Assembly: GCA_027449865.1 (NCBI GenBank)
Contig: DAIDKV010000195.1
Coordinates: 1 to 56,395, forward strand
DNA: 56,395 nt
Reading direction: 5' to 3'
From: Planctomycetales bacterium
Lineage (GTDB): Bacteria > Planctomycetota > Planctomycetia > Isosphaerales > Isosphaeraceae
The translations under genes were made by a program, and so were the position numbers. Shown here in pieces: positions 5,870 through 28,528 of this stretch. Every line of letters starts with the position of its first letter. Within the stretch, counting starts at the first letter, position 1. The notes below the pieces were generated by a model. The model worked only from the letters and a program-made list of their open reading frames with translations, made no database searches and was not told the origin of the DNA.

Positions 5870-6522
5870 CGTCGCACCTCCTGGCTTGTCAGCGGCGGTA
5901 CGTCCATCACGCCGTCGCGAAGAATGGCGCGGAAGAAACGCGGCGTCATGCCGTCGTCGAAGTCGATCTCGTGGAGCATGTAGCCGAGGTCGCGCTCGCC
6001 CTGGAAATCGGGAGGGACTTCGGGGAGGGCCTGGCCGTCGTCGATGAGGGCGAAATCGGCGGGGAACTCGCGGCAGCCGAGATACGGGCGCTGGAAGCAC
6101 CGGCCGTCGCGGGCGCGACGTTGGAACTGGTCAAGGTGCTTCCCGGCATTGTTCTCGCCGCCCAGGATCTCGAAGCGGGCCTCGATCACGTAGGCGACGT
6201 CGCGGAGGATCGTCGCGGCGCGTTGCTGGCGGTCGTCCTCAACGTACATCCCCAGGCTACCTCGGCCCTGCTTCATCGTGGTGGCGACCGTGCCCGCCGG
6301 GATCTTGCTCGCCACCTCATTGCGCCGGATCGACGTGAAGCGAATCGGCTTCAAAACCCGGATGCGCGTGACCTCCCACCGAATCTCCGGCTTCCAGTAA
6401 ATCGCCTCGACAATCCCCCGGGCCGCCGAGGGCGTCATCACGTCGTACGAGACGCGCTCCACCTTCATCTCGGGGCGCGTGAAGCAGGCGAAATCGCCCC
6501 AAACTTCCAACTGTATGCTCAT
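5866..6522 (-). CDS. cas5: Type I-C pre-crRNA endoribonuclease Cas5 (Cas5d/Cas5c)
   Basis: 218 residues from the ATG at 6522. The N-terminus (IQLEVWGDFACFTRPEMKVE) and VSYDVMTPSAARGIVEAIYW are diagnostic of the catalytic Cas5 of type I-C, which replaces Cas6: it cuts pre-crRNA in the repeat and stays bound to the 5' handle. A later CFQRPYLGCREFPADF segment is also family-typical. The reading frame opens 22 codons upstream, but family alignment fixes the start. It overlaps cas8c by 4 bp. A 246-bp gap separates it from cas3, so the Cascade genes may have their own promoter there. Confidence 0.96.
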   Translation of the reverse strand: MSIQLEVWGDFACFTRPEMKVERVSYDVMTPSAARGIVEAIYWKPEIRWEVTRIRVLKPIRFTSIRRNEVASKIPAGTVATTMKQGRGSLGMYVEDDRQQRAATILRDVAYVIEARFEILGGENNAGKHLDQFQRRARDGRCFQRPYLGCREFPADFALIDDGQALPEVPPDFQGERDLGYMLHEIDFDDGMTPRFFRAILRDGVMDVPPLTSQEVRR

Positions 6523-6768
6523 CGATCTTGCCAACCCTCCCGTCTTTGGAGCCCACAACTTGAGGCATGCCCGGTGGGCTGATTTCACACGACCATCACT
6601 GTGAAGCGTGTACTTTTACACCAGGCTGGGTATACTGTCCATGTGTTACCACGGCCTGGTCGCATTTTGTCGTGGAAGTCGTTTCTAAAGCGACGGTACG
6701 AATGCGGCGCGCGTGCCCGCGACAAGGCTTGCGCTCATCGAGCCGCTGTCACCATGGGTCGTGAAGGC
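6523..6768 (-). promoter_or_regulatory. Intergenic gap between cas3 and cas5
   Basis: A 246-bp stretch with no convincing gene and a locally lower GC content around 6600-6700. It is the only large gap upstream of the tightly overlapping cas5-cas8c-cas7 run, so a separate Cascade promoter is plausible. A short imperfect dyad, CCAGGC at 6621-6626 and GCCTGG at 6654-6659, may be incidental. No confident -35/-10 pair was identified. Confidence 0.4.
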
Positions 6769-9054
6769 TCAGACGACGAGCCTGTCGGGATCGAGGCCGA
6801 GGACGTCGAAGATCAGGCCGAGGTTGTCGTGATAGGCGGCGGGGTTGGCGAGATAGAATCGGCCGTGGCGTTCGAACAGGTTGTTGTTCTGGCTCAGCTT
6901 GATGAGGCCCTGCTCGTAGACGCCGACGACGAAGCGCTGGGCCCGGCGGTCGAAGACGCGGAGTTGCCAGGGCTCGACGGAATCGGGGAAGCTTTCCAGC
7001 TCCTTGATGAGATCCCGTCCGCGACCGTAAGGGACGAGCAGCCGGACCTGGGCGTCGTCGATGAGGCGATACGTCGCGGCGGCCCGGCGGAACTGGGCGT
7101 GCAGGAGGTGTTTTCGATCGGAACGGAAGGCGTCCATGACGCTTTCGCCTTCGGCGCCGCGATCCCAGCCGCGTCCGCCGTCGCCGCCCTGCTGCCAGTA
7201 GTGGAGGCGGAAAAAGTCCGCAACGGCGCGGGGCGAGAGCAGGTCGTCGTGATTTCCGGCGATCTCGCGGAAGTGGCCGGCGGCCTGGGTGATCGAGGGG
7301 ACGGTCGGATACGCCTTCGTGTCATCATCGAAAACGACCACCCGGCCGAGCTGGGGTGTTCCGTCGTCGGACGACAGCCGACCCTCGCGATTGCAACGGC
7401 CGGCCGCCTGGGTGATCGAGTCGAGCCCGGCGGCTGCCCGATAGACGGCCGGGAAGTCGACGTCCACGCCCGCCTCGATCACCTGGGTGGAGATCACCCG
7501 GCAAGGGTTCTGATCGTTGAGGCGTTGGCGGATTTTTGCGACGACGTCCGAACGATGCTCGGCGCACATTGAGGCGCTCAGGTGCAGCGCGTTGTCGTCG
7601 TCCAACTCGGTGAAGAGTTCGGCGGCGTGTCGACGTGAGTTGACGACGCAAAGAACCTGTTTCTCTTCCCGGAGGGATCGGACGAGGTCCGCGTTCTCGA
7701 TCCGGCCCCGGCGCTCGACCGAGACGCGACGGAGGGCATCGTGGAGCGCGGCCGGATCGTCGACAATGGGCCGGATGTTTTCCAGGCCGATCGAGAACTC
7801 CGAACGCTTTTCCAGAGCGGGCTGAGTCGCCGTGCAGAGGACGACCGTTGAACCGTGGTTCCGCACCAGTTCCTCGAGCGCGGCGAGGGTGGGAGCCAGG
7901 AGGCGAGGGGGCAACGTTTGCACCTCGTCGAGGATGATGACGCTCCTCGCGAGGCGGTGCAACTTCCGACACCGCGACGGCTTGAAGGCAAAGAGCGACT
8001 CGAACAGTTGCACGTTGGTTGTGACGATGAGGGGCGCGTCGAAGTTCTCGGCGGCCAGCCGCAGCCGGATAGATTGACGGGCGGGATCGTCGGCGTCGAG
8101 ATTGCCGTGGTGTTCGAGCACGTGTTCACTCAGGTCGCCGAGGGCCTCGCGGAAGATGTCGGCGGTCTGCTCGATGATGCTGGTGAAGGGGATCGCGTGG
8201 ACGACGCGGCGAAGGCCGTGCTTCTCGGCGTGCGCGAGGCCGAACGCCAGCGAGGAGAGCGTCTTGCCGCCGCCGGTGGGGACGTGGAGCGAGAAGAAAC
8301 CGGGAGGCTCGGCGGCTCGATCTCGACAGAGCGCCAGGACCTCGGCGCGGCGTTGGTTGACGGGGGACTCGGCGCGGCCGTTCTGCTTGCGCTCCCGATG
8401 CTTGCCGTTCAGGTAGAGGTCGAGTCGTTCGCGCATCGAGGCGGGCGAGGGAGGGTTTGCCGGCCGGTGGCTCGCGCGGCCGGGATCCAGGAATTGCTCG
8501 GTGTCCAGGAAGTCGGCATCGACGAGGGAGGAGAAGAGCATCCGTGTCCAGAAGGCGAGCGTGAAACCGAGGCGACGCTCGGATTTCGCGTCGGGGCTGT
8601 GGAGCCGAGGGGGTTGTGGCGGGGGATACTCGCGGAGATCGGCCGGCGCGGCGTCGATGGGAGGGATCGCTTTTTGCAGGCGGGCCGAGAGGCTGGAGGC
8701 CTCGCCAACGTGGTCGGGCAGGCCGGCGTGGTGGCCCGCGATCACGTAGGCGAGAAGTCTCGCCTTGAGCCGGTCGGCGTGCTGGGCTCCGGCGGTGGAA
8801 TGGTCGACGCGGCCGGTCATCTCCGAGGAGTGGACCACGTCCTCATCGCCGCCGTTCTGGCACAGGTAGTTCTGGAAATCGTCGCTGTACTTGCCCAGGT
8901 CGTGCCAGAGTCCGGCCAGGTAGCCCCACTCGCCGGCCTGGAAGGCGGACGCGAATTCCTGGGCGCGGCGGGCCGTCTCCTCGAGATGATCGCGGAGTCG
9001 ATGCCAATCCGACCGGGGCCGCCCGGAACGACTGTGCGCATAATGGTCGGCCAT
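6769..9054 (-). CDS. cas3: CRISPR helicase-nuclease Cas3 (type I-C)
   Basis: 761 residues from the ATG at 9054. The N-terminal HD nuclease shows LWHDLGKYS (H51, D52) and a later DHSTAGAQ histidine. The superfamily 2 helicase follows, with Walker A VPTGGGKT near 258-265, Walker B as LDEVQTLP near 375-381 and motif III LCTATQ near 407-411. The C-terminal part contains the second helicase lobe (VISTQVIEAGVDVDF, AAGRCNREG). Cas3 is recruited by Cascade and unwinds and degrades target DNA. An in-frame ATG 10 codons upstream (9084) is possible but weaker. The gene starts only 55 bp after the stop of the CsrA-receiver gene on the same strand. Confidence 0.96.
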   Translation of the reverse strand: MADHYAHSRSGRPRSDWHRLRDHLEETARRAQEFASAFQAGEWGYLAGLWHDLGKYSDDFQNYLCQNGGDEDVVHSSEMTGRVDHSTAGAQHADRLKARLLAYVIAGHHAGLPDHVGEASSLSARLQKAIPPIDAAPADLREYPPPQPPRLHSPDAKSERRLGFTLAFWTRMLFSSLVDADFLDTEQFLDPGRASHRPANPPSPASMRERLDLYLNGKHRERKQNGRAESPVNQRRAEVLALCRDRAAEPPGFFSLHVPTGGGKTLSSLAFGLAHAEKHGLRRVVHAIPFTSIIEQTADIFREALGDLSEHVLEHHGNLDADDPARQSIRLRLAAENFDAPLIVTTNVQLFESLFAFKPSRCRKLHRLARSVIILDEVQTLPPRLLAPTLAALEELVRNHGSTVVLCTATQPALEKRSEFSIGLENIRPIVDDPAALHDALRRVSVERRGRIENADLVRSLREEKQVLCVVNSRRHAAELFTELDDDNALHLSASMCAEHRSDVVAKIRQRLNDQNPCRVISTQVIEAGVDVDFPAVYRAAAGLDSITQAAGRCNREGRLSSDDGTPQLGRVVVFDDDTKAYPTVPSITQAAGHFREIAGNHDDLLSPRAVADFFRLHYWQQGGDGGRGWDRGAEGESVMDAFRSDRKHLLHAQFRRAAATYRLIDDAQVRLLVPYGRGRDLIKELESFPDSVEPWQLRVFDRRAQRFVVGVYEQGLIKLSQNNNLFERHGRFYLANPAAYHDNLGLIFDVLGLDPDRLVV

Positions 9055-9109
9055 GAGTGGCGAGTTCTTCGGGACGGTTCTCAACGGGAGAGACGGGCTC
9101 GGCGCGCGC

Positions 9110-9853
9110 TCAGTTCGACGAGTTCGGACCGCAAACGCTCTCCTGCATCACTTCCCAGAGCCGTTGAGGATTCAGGGGCTTGGCGAACCAGGCGTCGAAT
9201 CCCGTCGGGCCATCGGCGATTCCCAGCTCGTGGGGAGGTGTGCTGCTGAGAGAGAAGACCTTCACCCGGGCAAAACGCTCGTCCGCACGGATCCGACGAA
9301 GCGTCGCCGGTCCGTCGCAACGCGGGAGGGCCATGTCGAGAAGGATCACATCGGGACGCCTTCCCGAGTCGAGGTAGGCCAGCGCGTCCTCTCCGTCTCC
9401 GACCTGGTCGCACTGGCATCCGTTCATGCCGAGGAGCCCGGCGAGCAGTTCACGCTGATTCACGTCGTCCTCGACGATCAGGGCGTGACACCGGCGAGGC
9501 GCCGGGGGACCATCGGGAAGCGCGGGGGGCCGGTGTGCCGCCACCAGAGCTTCCAGCGACTCCATCGCGAGATTCAGCGTGACGATCGCCGCTTCCGAGC
9601 GGCCAGCCTCGACCTGCTTTTGCGCCAGTTGAACCGCGAGCGTCGCCTTGCTCAGCGTGTTGGCCAGGTCATGGCGCGATCGGCGGGCCGTCTCTTCCAG
9701 CGTCGAGAGCAATTCGTCGCGGAGGACGGGGATCTCGGGAGGAGCCTCGATCCCGATCCGGGCCGCTCCCTTCGCCCACTTCAACAGGTGAACGGTGATG
9801 CCCAGCGAGGGAAACACGATGCGCTGGCTCGGGCGGCGAGTGACGACCAGCAT
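9110..9853 (-). CDS. CsrA domain fused to response-regulator receiver domain
   Basis: 247 residues from the ATG at 9853. Residues 1-47 are a CsrA/RsmA RNA-binding domain: MLVVTRRPSQRIVF, ARIGIEAPPE and VLRDE, keeping arginines equivalent to R6/R7 and R44 of CsrA. A helical linker (about 48-108) leads to a receiver domain at about 122-240 with acidic EDD (128-130), phospho-acceptor D173 (LLDMALP) and K225. The protein should couple phosphorylation to mRNA binding, though that is inferred from the architecture. An in-frame ATG 15 codons upstream is less likely because CsrA proteins start at MLxLTR. It lies 55 bp before cas3 and 273 bp after an ANTAR regulator, all on one strand. Confidence 0.9.
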   Translation of the reverse strand: MLVVTRRPSQRIVFPSLGITVHLLKWAKGAARIGIEAPPEIPVLRDELLSTLEETARRSRHDLANTLSKATLAVQLAQKQVEAGRSEAAIVTLNLAMESLEALVAAHRPPALPDGPPAPRRCHALIVEDDVNQRELLAGLLGMNGCQCDQVGDGEDALAYLDSGRRPDVILLDMALPRCDGPATLRRIRADERFARVKVFSLSSTPPHELGIADGPTGFDAWFAKPLNPQRLWEVMQESVCGPNSSN

Positions 9854-10126
9854 GGCTGGGTCTCCGTACCCTCGAAATCTCGATTCAGTGGGGATCATCC
9901 CCCCGGATAATATCTGCGCATGGCAAATTTAACGATTCTCCGTGGTGCCGGTCAATGACCTGCCCTCTCCAAAAACGGCGGAGTGGAGAAACCGAACTAC
10001 CGCGAAGAAAGCCCTTCCCGATTTCTGACGGTCGAGTTGGAGAATCTGTCTTTTATCTGATTTCTGTCGCATCAGGAAAAAAAGATCCGAAATCGGGAAG
10101 AGCCTGGGACGCCCGTTTGCGGGTTC

Positions 10127-10792
10127 TCAGGGCGTGGATGTTTCGGGCGCCGGGGTCACGGGCGTGGCGACCGCGACGGCGGCTGGGGCAGCGGCTCCGG
10201 CACCGGCCAGGCCCTCGGGTTCGTTGCCGGCGATCACCTGGCGGGCGATCTCGGCGAGTTTGGCGTTGCGGTCGCGAGCCGTCCGGCGGAGCCGGAGGTA
10301 GGCTTCCTCCTCGTCGAGGCCGTGCCGCTTCATCATCAGGCCCTTGGCTCGCTCGATCACCTTGCGTTCCTCCAGGGCCAGGCCACGGTCGGCCGACTCC
10401 TTTCGGAGGGCCTGGAATTGCTCGAACCGTTGCATCGCGATCGCGATGGCGGCCTCAAGATCGGCCTGCTTCGTGGGCTTGACGAGGTAAGCCAGCACGT
10501 GGTCGCCGCGGGCGCGCTCGAAAAGTTGGGGGCGGTGATAGGCCGAGACCAGGATCGTGGGGATCGGTCCCTCGCGAGAGATTTCCTCGGCGGCCTCGAT
10601 GCCGTCCATCTCGGGCATTTTGATATCGGCAATGATCAGGTCGGGACGGAGCGTCCGACAGAGTTCGACCAGTTCCTTGCCGTTGGAGGCGACGCCGATG
10701 AGCTGGTGGCCCAGCCGGGGGAGCACGCGCTGGTAGTAGTCGCGGACATCCTGTTCGTCGTCGGCCACTGCGATTCTGAGAGAGTTGTTCAT
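10127..10792 (-). CDS. Response regulator with ANTAR RNA-binding output domain
   Basis: 221 residues. The receiver domain (about 1-120) has the acidic pair D11/D12, phospho-acceptor D56 in LIIADIKMPEMDG and K105. After a coiled linker an ANTAR domain follows at about 135-190 (EERKVIERAKGLMMKRHGLDEEEAY, then NAKLAEIARQVI). ANTAR proteins bind paired RNA hairpins and prevent transcription termination when phosphorylated. The Ala/Pro-rich tail (195-221) is of unknown role. It overlaps the upstream kinase gene by 4 bp, which makes that kinase its likely partner. Confidence 0.93.
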   Translation of the reverse strand: MNNSLRIAVADDEQDVRDYYQRVLPRLGHQLIGVASNGKELVELCRTLRPDLIIADIKMPEMDGIEAAEEISREGPIPTILVSAYHRPQLFERARGDHVLAYLVKPTKQADLEAAIAIAMQRFEQFQALRKESADRGLALEERKVIERAKGLMMKRHGLDEEEAYLRLRRTARDRNAKLAEIARQVIAGNEPEGLAGAGAAAPAAVAVATPVTPAPETSTP

Positions 10793-13017
10793 AACAGGCC
10801 TCGGGGGAGAGTGACGATGATCTCGGCGCCGGGACGGGCGCCCTCGCCGACGGCGATCCGGCCGCCATGAGCCTCGACGATCCGACGTGTGATCGCCATT
10901 CCGAGCCCGGTCCCTCGGGCCTTGGTGGTGAAGAATGGCTCGAAGATACGCCGTCTTTGTTCGGGCCCGAGCCCAGGCCCGTTGTCGCGAACGGCGACGC
11001 GAATGGCCGGTTCCCCGTCAAGGGTGGCCGGCTCGCACGCGATTTCGACGCGCGCCGGATCAGGAGCGGCGTCGAGGGCGTTATCCAGAATGTTACGGAA
11101 GACCTGGCCAAGTCGGAAGGGGTCACCCGAGCATCGGGGGACGACTCCGTCGAGATCCTCGACCAGTTCGGCGGCCCGGCTGGTGCGTCCGGCGGCGATT
11201 TGGGCCCAGACGGTCCGCCAGACCTCGGGGAGGTCGCAGGCGCGCGGTTCCAGAATGATGGGAGCGGCGTAGGTGCGAACGTCCTCGAAGACGTGGTAGA
11301 GGGTGTCCTGGGCCGCCTGGATTCGGTCGATGAGCTGGAGAGCCGGCGGCTGGTCCTCGACCTCGATGGCGAGCATTTCCAGGCAGACCTGGCAGCGATG
11401 GAGGGCGTTCCGGCTTTCGTGACTGATCCCGGCGACCATCTCGCCGATGGCGGCCAGTCGTTCGGCGTGGAGGGCTCGCTGTTGCGCTTCCTCCAGCGCG
11501 GAGATGTCGTGGCCGATCGCCAGAACGCAGGTTTCGCCGCCTGGGCCAAGAACGGCCCGGTTGGCCCATTCCAGGCGGCGGAACCGGCCTTCGGGGCCGG
11601 TGACCGGGTAGATCGTGGGCTCGCCGGCCTCGCCCGAGAGGGCCCGCATCGTGGCCTCGCGGGCGCGGTCGCGATGTTCCGGAGGGACGGCCGAGGCAAA
11701 CCAGTCGCGTCCTTTCAGGTCGACGGCCGACCGCCCGGTGACGTGTTCGACGAATGGATTGACCAGGACCACCCGTCCACTGCCGTCGATCACCAGGACG
11801 ATCGCCCGGGCGGTGGCGATCAGTCCCTCGGCGAAGTCGCGCTCGCGCCTCAGCTCGATCTCGGCTTGCCGCCGTTCGGTGACGTCCTCGACGGTTCCGA
11901 CGTGTCCGACCATTTCTCCTTCATCGGAGAGCAGCGGAACCGTTCGGTCGTTCACCCATCGGATCGTTCCGCCGGGCGCCATCGCACGATATTCCATGGC
12001 GAAGTTGGTTCCGGAAGTGGCCAGCTTCCGCCATTGCTCGACCACGGCCGGCCGATCCTGGGGGTGGACGTAGCGGAACCACCCCTCGCCCAGCGCCTCG
12101 GGCTCCGTGAATCCGTAGATCCACTCGCAACGGGGGTTGGTGTAGGTCATCTGGCCGTCGGCATCGGTGAGGAAGATGCCGATCGGCGCGTGCTGACAGA
12201 GGGTTCGGAACCGCCGTTCGCTGGCCCGGAGCGCCTGCTCGGCCCGGGTGCGCGCGGTGATGTCGGTGGCGATACCGCCGACGGCGTAGACCGTTCCGTC
12301 CTCGTTTTTCAGCGGAAACTTCACGGTCAGGTAGGTGTGGGTTCCGTCTTGCTCGACAATGTGGTCTTCCACCTCGATGACCTTTCCGCTCCAGGCGACG
12401 GCGCTGTCGCTGGCGCGGAACCGCTCGGCCTGATCGGCCGGGAAGAGGTTCTCGTCGAGCTGGCCTTCCACGGGACCGGGCGGGGTGTTCGGCCCGGCGA
12501 AGACGTTGATCCGGCGGTTGGCCAGTAGATATCGGCCGTCGAGGTCTTTCAAGAAGATCGCCGAGGGAGAATTGTCGAGGATCGCCCGGAGACGCGCTTC
12601 ACTCCGCGCGAGTTCTTCCTGAAACTCTCGTGCCTGAAATTCGCTGGCCTCGGCCCGGCGGCGGGCCGCGTGCAGCATCGCCATCGTTCCGCTGAGCAAG
12701 ATGCCCTCGGCCAGAAAGACCACCAACCGCGCCCGGTCGTGCGGATTGGTGAGCGAGAACGATGGGTCTGGCGAGTGGTGGGTCAACAGGCAGGCTCCGG
12801 CCGCCAGCGTCGTCGCCAGTAAACCAGGTCCCAGCCCCCCCAACCATGCGGCGAACGTCACCGAGGGCAAGTAGAGCAAGAGCGGCGGACCCGGTCCGAC
12901 CGTCCGCTCCAGCACGAACTCAATCGCGCCCGTCAGGGCCACCGCCAGCGCGGCCGTCGGATAAGGCCGGATTGATGGCCAGGATTTCATGTTCGATTCA
13001 TCACGACGGAACATCAT
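10789..13017 (-). CDS. Membrane PAS-domain sensor histidine kinase
   Basis: 742 residues. The N-terminus (about 18-120) has hydrophobic spans resembling a DUF4118/KdpD-type four-helix sensor. Three PAS domains follow (about 140-257, 265-383, 390-508), each ending in a typical PAC-like IATDIT, VEDVT or GHDIS segment. The dimerisation box contains H533 in GISHESRNALH, and a HATPase domain (about 630-740) has DNGPGLG and GTGLGMAI glycine boxes. It should autophosphorylate and pass phosphate to the ANTAR regulator encoded 4 bp inside its end. Starts at 13014 or 12990 are possible alternatives. Confidence 0.93.
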   Translation of the reverse strand: MMFRRDESNMKSWPSIRPYPTAALAVALTGAIEFVLERTVGPGPPLLLYLPSVTFAAWLGGLGPGLLATTLAAGACLLTHHSPDPSFSLTNPHDRARLVVFLAEGILLSGTMAMLHAARRRAEASEFQAREFQEELARSEARLRAILDNSPSAIFLKDLDGRYLLANRRINVFAGPNTPPGPVEGQLDENLFPADQAERFRASDSAVAWSGKVIEVEDHIVEQDGTHTYLTVKFPLKNEDGTVYAVGGIATDITARTRAEQALRASERRFRTLCQHAPIGIFLTDADGQMTYTNPRCEWIYGFTEPEALGEGWFRYVHPQDRPAVVEQWRKLATSGTNFAMEYRAMAPGGTIRWVNDRTVPLLSDEGEMVGHVGTVEDVTERRQAEIELRRERDFAEGLIATARAIVLVIDGSGRVVLVNPFVEHVTGRSAVDLKGRDWFASAVPPEHRDRAREATMRALSGEAGEPTIYPVTGPEGRFRRLEWANRAVLGPGGETCVLAIGHDISALEEAQQRALHAERLAAIGEMVAGISHESRNALHRCQVCLEMLAIEVEDQPPALQLIDRIQAAQDTLYHVFEDVRTYAAPIILEPRACDLPEVWRTVWAQIAAGRTSRAAELVEDLDGVVPRCSGDPFRLGQVFRNILDNALDAAPDPARVEIACEPATLDGEPAIRVAVRDNGPGLGPEQRRRIFEPFFTTKARGTGLGMAITRRIVEAHGGRIAVGEGARPGAEIIVTLPRGLL

Positions 13018-24490: not shown

Positions 24491-27400
24491 ATGACAAGTG
24501 ATGGAGAGTCGGTCGATCCCGCGCCGATGGCGGCGGACCTCGATCTGGATGAGGTTGCGCCTCGGTTGGTGGTCGGTGTGGGGGCCTCGGCCGGCGGGCT
24601 GGAGGCGTTGGAGCGGCTCTTCGAGGAGATGCCGACGGATACGGGCATGGCCTTCGTGGTGGTCCAGCACCTCTCGCCGAATTACAAGAGCATGACCGAT
24701 GAGATCCTGGCGCGTCGGACGGGACTTCCGATCCGGCTGGCTGAGGATGGGATCAAGGTCCAGCGAGACACGATCTACCTGATCCCGCCCCGGAAGGACA
24801 TGATTCTCCGGGAAGGGCGATTGTTGCTGACGGACAAGGATCCCGACCAGCTTGTGACCCTGCCGATCGACGTGTTTCTCCGCTCACTGGCGCAGGAGGC
24901 GGGTGATCGGGGGGTTGCGATCATCCTCTCGGGCACGGGGAGTGACGGTTCGCGCGGGGTTCGCGATGTTCACGAGGCGGGCGGGCTGGTGATCGCCCAC
25001 GATCCGCAGGCCGCCAAGTTCGACGGGATGCCTCGAAGCGCCATTGATACCGGGACGACCGACCTGACCCTGGCGCCGGAGTTGATGCCCGAGGCGTTGC
25101 TTCGGCACCTGAAGAGTCCGCATGTCGGGCCTCATCCGCCGACGGCGGAGCCGACGGGCGTGGACGCGATTTTTCGGTTGCTTCGCGATGGATACGCGAT
25201 CGACTTCTCGCATTACAAGCCGGACACCGTGGCTCGCCGGCTGGAGCGGCGGCTTTCGCTGGGCGAGGTTCCTGGGCTGGACGAGTACGCGCGTCGGCTT
25301 TCGGACGATCCGGCCGAGCTGAACCTGCTGTACAAGGATCTGCTGATCGGCGTCACCCGGTTTTTCCGCGACGAGGAAGCCTTTGCCCGGATCGGGCGGG
25401 ATGTGCTTCCCGAGCTTCTCGGACGCCTGGCGCCTGGCGAGGAGTTTCGGGCCTGGGTTGCTGGTTGTGCGACGGGTGAGGAGGCGTATTCGCTCGCGAT
25501 CCTGGTTCGGGAGGGGATGGAGGCGCTCGGCCGCACCGGCCCGTTGAAGATTTTCGCGACCGACGCGCACCGCGCCTCGCTCGACACCGCCGGCGCCGGC
25601 ATCTATTCCGAAGCGGTCTGCGCCGATGTCGGCGCCGATCGGCTGAACCGGTTTTTCACCCGGGTTGCCGGAGGCTTTCAGGTCTCGGCCGACCTCCGAA
25701 GGTCGATTGTTTTCGCGCAGCACAATGTCCTGAAGGATGCCCCGTTCACCAAGCTGGATCTGGTCTCCTGCCGGAACATGCTGATTTATCTTCGTCCGGC
25801 CGCGCAGAAACGGGTGCTTTCGCTCTTCCATTTCGCGCTGAAGACGGGGGGTGTTCTTTTTCTGGGTCCGAGCGAGACTCCTGGCGAGGTGAACGACGAG
25901 TTCGATCCGCTGGACCCTCGTTGGAAGTTTTACCGGAAGCGTCGGGATGTTCGGCTCGTCGCCGATCTTCGGCTGACGGAGGTCACGCCACAGGTTCGGT
26001 CTCCGGCTGGTGGCGTGCCTCCGCCGGCCGAGGCGCATCTGATCGGGACCTACGACGCTCTTCTCGATGAATTCATGCCGCCTGGTCTGCTGGTGAACGA
26101 GCGGGGTACGGTGATTCAGTCGTTTGGCGGGGCGAGCAAGTATCTGAAGTTTCGGGAGGGGCGCGTCACCACCGATCTGCTCGAGCTGGTCGAGCCCGAG
26201 GTACGAACGGCGCTCACCGGGGCCCTTCCGCGGGCCTTCAAGGAGCTAACCCGGGTCGCTTACAAGGGGCTTCGGGTCTCGGCCGCGGGGGTCGATCGGT
26301 TGATCAACCTCACGGTTCGGCCGATCCGCGATCGACGCGCGGGGGTTAGCCACGCTCTGATCCAGTTTGAGGATCTCGGAGAGGCGCCCTCCGTTCGCGA
26401 GACCGTCCACGAGATCGACCTCGGCCAGGCGTCTCGCGAGCAGATCCTCGCCCTGGAGGGGGAGCTACGATACACCAAGGAAAATCTCCAGGCGGTCATC
26501 GAGGAGATGGAGACCAGCAACGAGGAACTTCAGTCGACCAACCAGGAACTGACCGCCGCCAACGAGGAATTGCAGAGCACCAACGAGGAACTGCACTCAG
26601 TCAACGAAGAACTGTACACAGTGAACACCGAGTATCAGAAGAAGATCTCCGAGCTGACCGAGCTGACGGCCGACATGGACAACCTTCTGATCAGCACCGA
26701 GGTGCACACCATTTTCCTCGACCGCGACTTCCGCATTCGCAAGTTTACCCCGAAGATTGCCGAGACGTTCAACCTGATGCCCCAGGATCTCGGCCGAAAG
26801 ATCGACAATTTTACCTACACGATTGATCGTCCGGAGTTGATGGACGATCTTCGATCGGTGCTTGAGCGATCAGCGCCCCTGGAGCGCCAGGTGCGTGACC
26901 GCCGGGGGAACTGGTTCTTGCTTCGGATTCTTCCGTACCGCGCTGGTCTGGCGACCAACGGGGTAGTGCTCACGCTGGTGGACCTCTCGGGCGTGAAGCG
27001 GGCCGAGGCCGAGGCCCGGCGGAAGGACGAGCAATTGAATGGCATCCTTCGTAATTCCCCGAACTGGATGTTCATTCGAGACACAACAGGTCGATATGTG
27101 CTCTCGGATGAATCGTTCCGTCGGGCGGTCGGTCGCGACCCCCTGGGCAAGACGCCCGCCGAGCTATTCCCTCCGGATGTCGCCGAACGGATGACAAGCC
27201 GCGATGAGCAGGTCATCAACGAGGGCATGGAGATTCAGGACGAGGTGGTGATTCCGCTGAGCGATGGCCCGCATACGTTTCTTTCCGTGAAGTTTCCCCT
27301 GCGTGACGAGGCGGGGCGGATCACGGGTGTCGGCGGGATCAAGACCGACGTCACGCCGATTCGAGAGGCCGAGCGCACGGCGAACGAGGCCGTGGCGCAA

Positions 27401-28528
27401 CGTGATCGGTTTCTGGCGATGCTCTCGCACGAGCTGCGCAACCCGCTGGCGGCGGTCGTCAACGCGGCCGAGATGGCCGCGCGATCGGCGCCCGAGGAGA
27501 CCGAGGCTGGGCGGTGGGTCGGAGTGATTGGGCGTCGGGCGCGTCACATGGCCCGGCTGGTGGATGACCTTCTCGAAGTGGCGCGGTTTACCCGGGATAA
27601 GATTGAGCTTCACCGCTTGATTTTCGATCTGGCCACGACCATCCCCGATGTCCTGGAGGAGGTTCGCCAGTGGTTTCTCGATGCCGGTGTCACTCTCGTT
27701 CACGAGGTGTCCACGGGGCCGGTCGCGGTCGATGGCGACGCCGACCGACTCCAGCAGGTTCAGGTCAATCTGCTTCGGAACGCGGCCAAGTACACGCCGG
27801 CTGGTGGCACGGTCTGGTACAGCGTCAGGCAGGAGAACGATCGGGCCGTGATCCGGGTCCGGGATAATGGCGTCGGCCTGGCACCTGAGATGATCGCGCA
27901 TGTGTTTGAGCCGTTCGTCCAGGCCGATACCTCGCTGGCGCGGGCGGGCGGCGGACTCGGGGTCGGCCTGACGCTCGTTCGCTCGATCGTGGATCTGCAT
28001 GACGGGACGGTCGAGCCCCTGAGCGAGGGCACGGGGCAGGGAAGCGAGTTCATTGTGCGCCTTCCGCTGGCCGACCCGGCCCAGATACCCGCCCCCGTTG
28101 ATCCGCGGGCGGAGAGACCCTTATCCCCGACCATAGCGTCGAAGGCCGGTGGCCCGGCGCCCCGGTTGATTGTCGTCGAGGACGATCCGGATATCCGGAC
28201 GTTTCTGGTTGAGCTTCTGGAGCTGGACGGGCACGACGTTCGATCGTTCGCTGACAGCGAGGCCGCGCTCCGGTCGCTGGAGACCGAGGGCGTGGACGTC
28301 GCCCTGCTCGACATCGGACTGCCGGGGATCGACGGGTGCGAGCTTGCCCGTCGGATACGGAGCCGGCCGGGTCGGCAACCTTACCTGATCGCCCTGACCG
28401 GCTACGGGCGGCAGGAAGACCTCGCGGCGACCTCCTCGGCCGGGTTCGATGCGCACCTGACCAAGCCGTTTCGATCGCAGGATCTCGGCCGGCTCCTGGA
28501 AACCGCGGCGGCGGGTCGACCGGAGTGA
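24491..28528 (+). CDS. CheB-CheR-PAS hybrid histidine kinase
   Basis: 1345 residues. A CheB methylesterase domain (about 25-205) keeps S33 (GASAGG), H60 (VVQHLSP) and D152 (GTGSDG). A CheR methyltransferase follows (about 215-480; [22 protein letters not shown]). Then a PAS-like region, a long coiled coil (about 645-735) of repeated NEELQSTN heptads, two PAS domains, a HisKA box with H near 980 ([10 protein letters not shown]), a HATPase domain ([17 protein letters not shown]) and a C-terminal receiver (about 1217-1335; [11 protein letters not shown]). It probably senses a signal and phosphorylates itself and a partner. GGAGAC precedes the ATG. No chemotaxis genes lie nearby, so a non-flagellar role is likely. 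Confidence 0.94.

Follow-up and report, generated by a model that had tools for sequence, protein, structure and literature searches.

Architecture of the csrA-receiver locus

The window, that is, the whole 56,395-nt stretch of DNA that we analyzed, carries on its minus strand a gene for a 247-aa fusion protein, defined by its open reading frame, by Pfam matches and by full-length relatives in Planctomycetia. The gene runs from an ATG at 9853 to a TGA stop codon at 9112-9110, and its product combines a CsrA domain, a HisKA-like phosphoacceptor hairpin (with an HxxxN motif and no ATPase domain) and an intact receiver. A preliminary description had placed a CsrA-receiver fusion on the same strand as cas3 and 55 nt before the cas3 ATG, within an interval (9055-9853) that covers the gene plus the gap, and this is confirmed by open reading frames, Pfam and coordinates. 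Its choice of start codon, 9853, is also supported. An alternative ATG at 9898 was rejected because it is not present in congeners, and because the leader motif lies just ahead of 9853. The features around the gene are as follows.

6769..9054, minus strand: cas3, heading a type I-C cas operon; a neighbor through rearrangement, outside the conserved system
9055..9109, minus strand: 55-nt gap between the csrA-receiver stop codon and the cas3 ATG; rearrangement breakpoint
9110..9853, minus strand: csrA-DHp-REC gene (the csrA-receiver gene)
9859..9870, minus strand: leader motif GGTACGGAGACC, an A(N)GGA(X) CsrA-type site on the Shine-Dalgarno sequence, 5 nt upstream of the ATG
9890..9904, minus strand: second GGA-bearing palindrome, GGGGGGATGATCCCC, upstream of the leader motif and loosely kept in congeners
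9926..9955, minus strand: promoter-like TTGACC-18-TAAATT upstream of the csrA-receiver gene, mostly conserved across the genus
10127..10792, minus strand: REC-ANTAR response regulator gene just upstream of the csrA-receiver gene, retained in congeners
10789..13017, minus strand: PAS histidine kinase gene, sharing 4 nt with the REC-ANTAR gene, retained in congeners

Between 8700 and 10300, one promoter-like site was found before the csrA-receiver gene, and no terminator-like site. The REC-ANTAR protein and the CsrA fusion make a side-by-side pair of response regulators of RNA-binding type.

The fusion protein has three modules

The three modules map to the gene as follows.

9701..9853, minus strand: CsrA domain, residues 1-51 (Pfam CsrA, 3.0e-11)
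9536..9685, minus strand: HisKA-like (DHp) helical hairpin, residues about 57-106, without ATPase domain
9134..9487, minus strand: receiver domain (residues about 123-240) carrying D129, the phosphoacceptor D173 and K225

The N-terminal module of the window protein scores 43.5 bits against the Pfam CsrA profile (cut-off 27), which all 25 members of a family set also match. With TIGR00202, the equivalog-level CsrA model, it reaches 30.8 bits and stays below the cut-off of 70.1; judged by these profiles, it is a divergent CsrA-domain protein and not a CsrA orthologue. In an alignment of 35 full-length proteins of the class Planctomycetia (from 34 relatives' loci, two of which, L042 and L043, are also those on the two congener contigs recovered by a separate scan of public contigs, and from the window), R6 is present in 35/35 members and R45 in 34/35. 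The latter corresponds to R44 of Escherichia coli CsrA, a key RNA-binding residue there (PMC7652899). The window genome contains 11 CsrA genes including the fusion; the ten others lie on L001-L008 and on contigs C15 and C56, and the eight on L001-L008 encode short, receiver-less proteins (about 63-91 aa). As the fusion has the lowest CsrA score of the 11 (46.7 bits vs 63-94), its CsrA domain might have lost RNA binding and serve only as a dimerization handle, the receiver then acting through protein-protein contacts. We consider this very unlikely in view of the conservation of R6 and R45 and of the CsrA-type site in the leader.

The middle module was not identified by a single-protein Pfam scan of the window protein, and HisKA matches in such scans are weak (5/25 members, best E 0.013). 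When the middle segment of the family was compared, using hhalign, with the HisKA segments of neighboring kinases, the match was 96.5% (E 1e-9), against 0.3% for a reversed control, and the putative phosphoacceptor motif is well kept in the alignment, with H61 in 34/35 members and N65 in 35/35. Since Pfam finds no HATPase match, the protein is, by its domain content, not a kinase. As for the receiver, it is clearly recognized by Pfam (Response_reg, residues 125-235, 1.6e-16, 60.9 bits, above cut-off), and D129, D173 and K225 are invariant across the 35 members. A structure model of the protein was poor (pLDDT 52; three near-identical sequences), with the middle modeled as two helices.

Strong relatives were found in 32 of 118 related genomes by whole-genome search. 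In a 392-genome sample of the phylum there were 20 matches, all in one class, Planctomycetia, and a scan of public contigs yielded nothing beyond the two close congeners and a single receiver that is unrelated. Within the organism's own family the gene is patchy, with carriers among 6/45 genomes.

The junction with cas3 results from a rearrangement

The gene downstream is a genuine cas3 by its matches to TIGR01587 (116 bits) and TIGR01596 (101 bits), both above cut-off. From its ATG at 9054 the type I-C operon follows in the order cas3-cas5c-cas8c-cas7-cas4-cas1-array, the CRISPR array lying at the start of the window. Between cas4 and cas7 (2538-2711) there is an exact 53-nt direct duplication with 84-nt spacing, together with simple repeats of the CACAGAGA type.

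Comparison with congeners reveals how csrA-receiver and cas3 genes came to be adjacent. Homology ceases about 22 nt beyond the csrA-receiver stop codon. The csrA-receiver gene of congener G003 and a REC-GGDEF gene face each other; cas3, whose orthologues in G003 and G001 are 84-85% identical, sits about 58 nt behind a co-directional phosphoesterase-like gene. The counterpart is found on another contig of the window genome, C79, where a phosphoesterase-like gene faces REC-GGDEF.

L084 (contig C79 of the window genome, G000), 6121-9749: reciprocal gene-order exchange, compared with L097 and L043

The csrA-receiver/cas3 junction is thus one side of a reciprocal rearrangement within the genus, and the pattern, as read from gene order, is as left by an inversion or translocation. 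Misassembly is an unlikely source of the junction because the reciprocal junction exists on C79.

The preliminary description had suggested that read-through or post-transcriptional control could link signaling to CRISPR immunity. Read-through into cas3 is possible: the two genes are on the same strand, and neither a promoter-like nor a terminator-like site was found in the 55-nt gap. The rearrangement may accordingly have created an accidental operon, placing the cas genes under read-through from the csrA-receiver promoter with no evolved regulation of CRISPR; we regard this as a reasonable conjecture that falls somewhat short of being probable. In congeners, too, cas3 trails a co-directional gene, and it may depend on upstream transcription in both gene orders, but the promoter of the I-C operon could also sit inside the upstream gene. 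Such an operon is compatible with the main explanation developed below and not opposed to it.

An evolved role of the fusion as a post-transcriptional regulator of CRISPR-Cas is, on the other hand, highly improbable. Apart from the adjacency in the window genome, it could draw on the control of cas genes by the CsrA family in Serratia and other genera (in Serratia, stand-alone RsmA binds cas mRNAs; PMC8450108), and on plain GGA motifs near the starts of cas8, cas7 and cas1, through which an ordinary trans effect would be possible, although none of our results indicates one. Against it, congeners do not have the csrA-receiver/cas3 junction, and no cas3, cas5 or cas8 was found near the other relatives' csrA-receiver loci, some of which (as in G001) are cut by contig ends. 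Nor does the phylogenetic co-occurrence proposed as a check point to a link, cas3 being present in 12/32 csrA-receiver genomes vs 32/86 others (p=1). The gap has no GGA on the coding strand, as had been remarked, and none occurs within 60 nt upstream of cas3; likewise, no CsrA-type ANGGAN hairpin was found near any cas start of the operon. The suggested link between signaling and CRISPR is therefore not borne out: the neighborhood is not conserved, and this result corrects a tempting but wrong connection.

A CheB-CheR hybrid kinase is the likely partner

The commonest neighbor of the csrA-receiver gene is not cas3 but a giant CheB-CheR kinase gene. In 20 of the 34 loci from relatives, a CheB-CheR-HK-REC gene is no more than 10 kb away, in many cases no more than 0.6 kb, and its placement varies between directly upstream, convergent and divergent. 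The window has an orthologue 14.6 kb from the csrA-receiver gene.

24491..28528, plus strand: likely cognate kinase, CheB-CheR-PAS-HisKA-HATPase-REC, 1345 aa

The CheB, CheR, PAS, HisKA, HATPase and REC domains were all found in the four kinase relatives that we examined. The window kinase holds the sole CheB domain in reading frames longer than 400 aa of its genome, and CheB domains are few in the 15 genomes checked, at 1-7 each. Kinase orthologues, defined by a threshold of at least 500 bits that was set after the scores were seen, occur in 26/32 genomes with the csrA-receiver gene vs 2/86 without it (Fisher p=3e-18); p stays below 1e-7 at every threshold from 350 to 560 bits, and these p-values overstate independence because the genomes are related and the counts ignore phylogeny. 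Within the organism's own family, orthologues are found in 6/6 carriers of the csrA-receiver gene vs 0/39 non-carriers. This pattern suggests that the CheB-CheR-PAS-HK-REC protein is likely to be the cognate kinase of the csrA-receiver protein. Against a dedicated pairing stand the distance between the two genes in the window and six genomes that have the csrA-receiver gene without a kinase orthologue, some with another PAS-HK-REC gene adjacent; at loci without a CheB-CheR kinase, a smaller PAS-HK-REC gene often adjoins the csrA-receiver gene. At L061 and L063, and also at L056, several CheB-CheR genes stand in tandem beside the CsrA fusion.

A CsrA-type motif covers the Shine-Dalgarno sequence

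The leader of the csrA-receiver gene includes GGUACGGAGACC, and the core motif GGUANGGAGACC covers the Shine-Dalgarno sequence. It conforms to A(N)GGAX, the recognition core of CsrA/RsmE (PMC4005645), and the flanks of GGTACGGAGACC could pair over 3-4 bp. GGTANGGAGACC or close variants of it are kept even in relatives with as little as about 33% identity at the protein level. A strict ANGGAN loop whose flanks can pair over at least 3 bp was found in 17/35 family leaders, but in only 1/134 control leaders that were taken from these loci and contain GGA; several of the 17 come from close relatives, and L062, L064 and L069 position the GGA unlike the window. A leader RNA hairpin is not supported by thermodynamics or covariation, as folding programs do not predict the short hairpin as the minimum-energy fold, and covariation is not above shuffles. 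Only the sequence motif, with flanks that can pair, is therefore secure. The GGGGGGATGATCCCC palindrome, whose GGA precedes that of the leader motif by 35 nt, could be a second CsrA site.

The pattern GGTANGGAGACC-N2-8-ATG occurs exactly once per genome in 12/15 genomes of about 5.5-11 Mb and has no match in the other three, and in 11 of the 12 the single match is the csrA-receiver gene. The exception is G111, with a match at another gene and a csrA-receiver relative that starts with GTG. A reversed control pattern gave one match in total. Because all 15 genomes were chosen among csrA-receiver carriers, these counts show that the motif is rare elsewhere in carriers, not that it is universal.

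The leader motif could alternatively be a target of canonical CsrA paralogues, and not of the fusion itself. We view such cross-regulation as rather unlikely, even though the A(N)GGAX core is common to the CsrA family (PMC4005645) and the ten further CsrA genes of the window genome, all scoring above the fusion in the CsrA domain, could supply the leader binder, a point that also counts against self-repression. If it were a general CsrA site, the motif should recur at many genes, but together with a start codon it occurs only at the csrA-receiver gene in 11/12 genomes, a count of strict sites.

A proposed CsrA-output response regulator

On balance we favor the view that the csrA-receiver protein is a response regulator with a CsrA output, set by the CheB-CheR hybrid kinase and repressing its own translation. 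The partner kinase would control how far D173 in the receiver is phosphorylated, the phosphate arriving either directly or via H61 in the HisKA-like module, and the HxxxN motif there could also remove it. Phosphorylation would alter the geometry of the dimer and, in turn, RNA binding by the CsrA dimer, which would bind GGUANGGAGACC on its own Shine-Dalgarno sequence and repress its own translation. Our observations establish the domain architecture, the conserved residues, the linkage and co-occurrence with the kinase, and a leader motif that is both conserved and rare; the transfer of phosphate, the switch, the binding of RNA and self-repression are steps that we infer. The fuller scheme is one to which we give about equal weight for and against: a two-component system with the receiver on CsrA itself, a hairpin for phosphotransfer or phosphatase action and a dedicated CheB-CheR kinase, in which mRNA binding would be gated without sponge RNAs and self-repression would act via a leader element that is unique among start codons in most genomes searched.

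CsrA is a global translation regulator, usually controlled by sponge RNAs or FliW. In the Gac/Rsm system (BarA-UvrY-CsrB-CsrA), a hybrid kinase likewise passes a signal to a CsrA-type output; in contrast, the system proposed here would need no transcription factor or sponge RNA, as the receiver is on CsrA itself, and its kinase bears CheB-CheR domains. The fusion resembles CsrA/RsmA/RsmE proteins in its CsrA domain, in R6 and the R44-equivalent, and in an A(N)GGAX motif placed over the Shine-Dalgarno sequence as for hcnA/RsmE (PMC4005645, PMC7652899), and autoregulation of CsrA is known (PMC7652899). It differs from ordinary CsrA, which stands alone, by its fusion to the HisKA-like hairpin and receiver. 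With response regulators that have an RNA-binding output it shares the combination of a receiver and such an output, and receivers with a CsrA output are already a listed class in the domain census as quoted by PMC2222644. Compared with that class, the CsrA domain here is N-terminal, with the HisKA-like hairpin in between, and the system further comprises a likely dedicated kinase as well as the leader motif. The likeness to Rsm control of CRISPR in Serratia goes no further than a CsrA family member and cas genes, for here there is only a non-conserved adjacency.

In the literature searched, we found no description of the planctomycete CsrA-receiver protein, its kinase or the leader motif. The proposed mechanism, if true, would wire CsrA straight to a sensor kinase and shorten the path by which a signal reaches translation, and with its leader element and kinase partner the csrA-receiver system can be tested by small experiments. 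Csr control has hardly been studied in this phylum, as far as the literature searched goes; in the window genome there are already 11 CsrA genes, and the ten besides the fusion are a large set for one genome.
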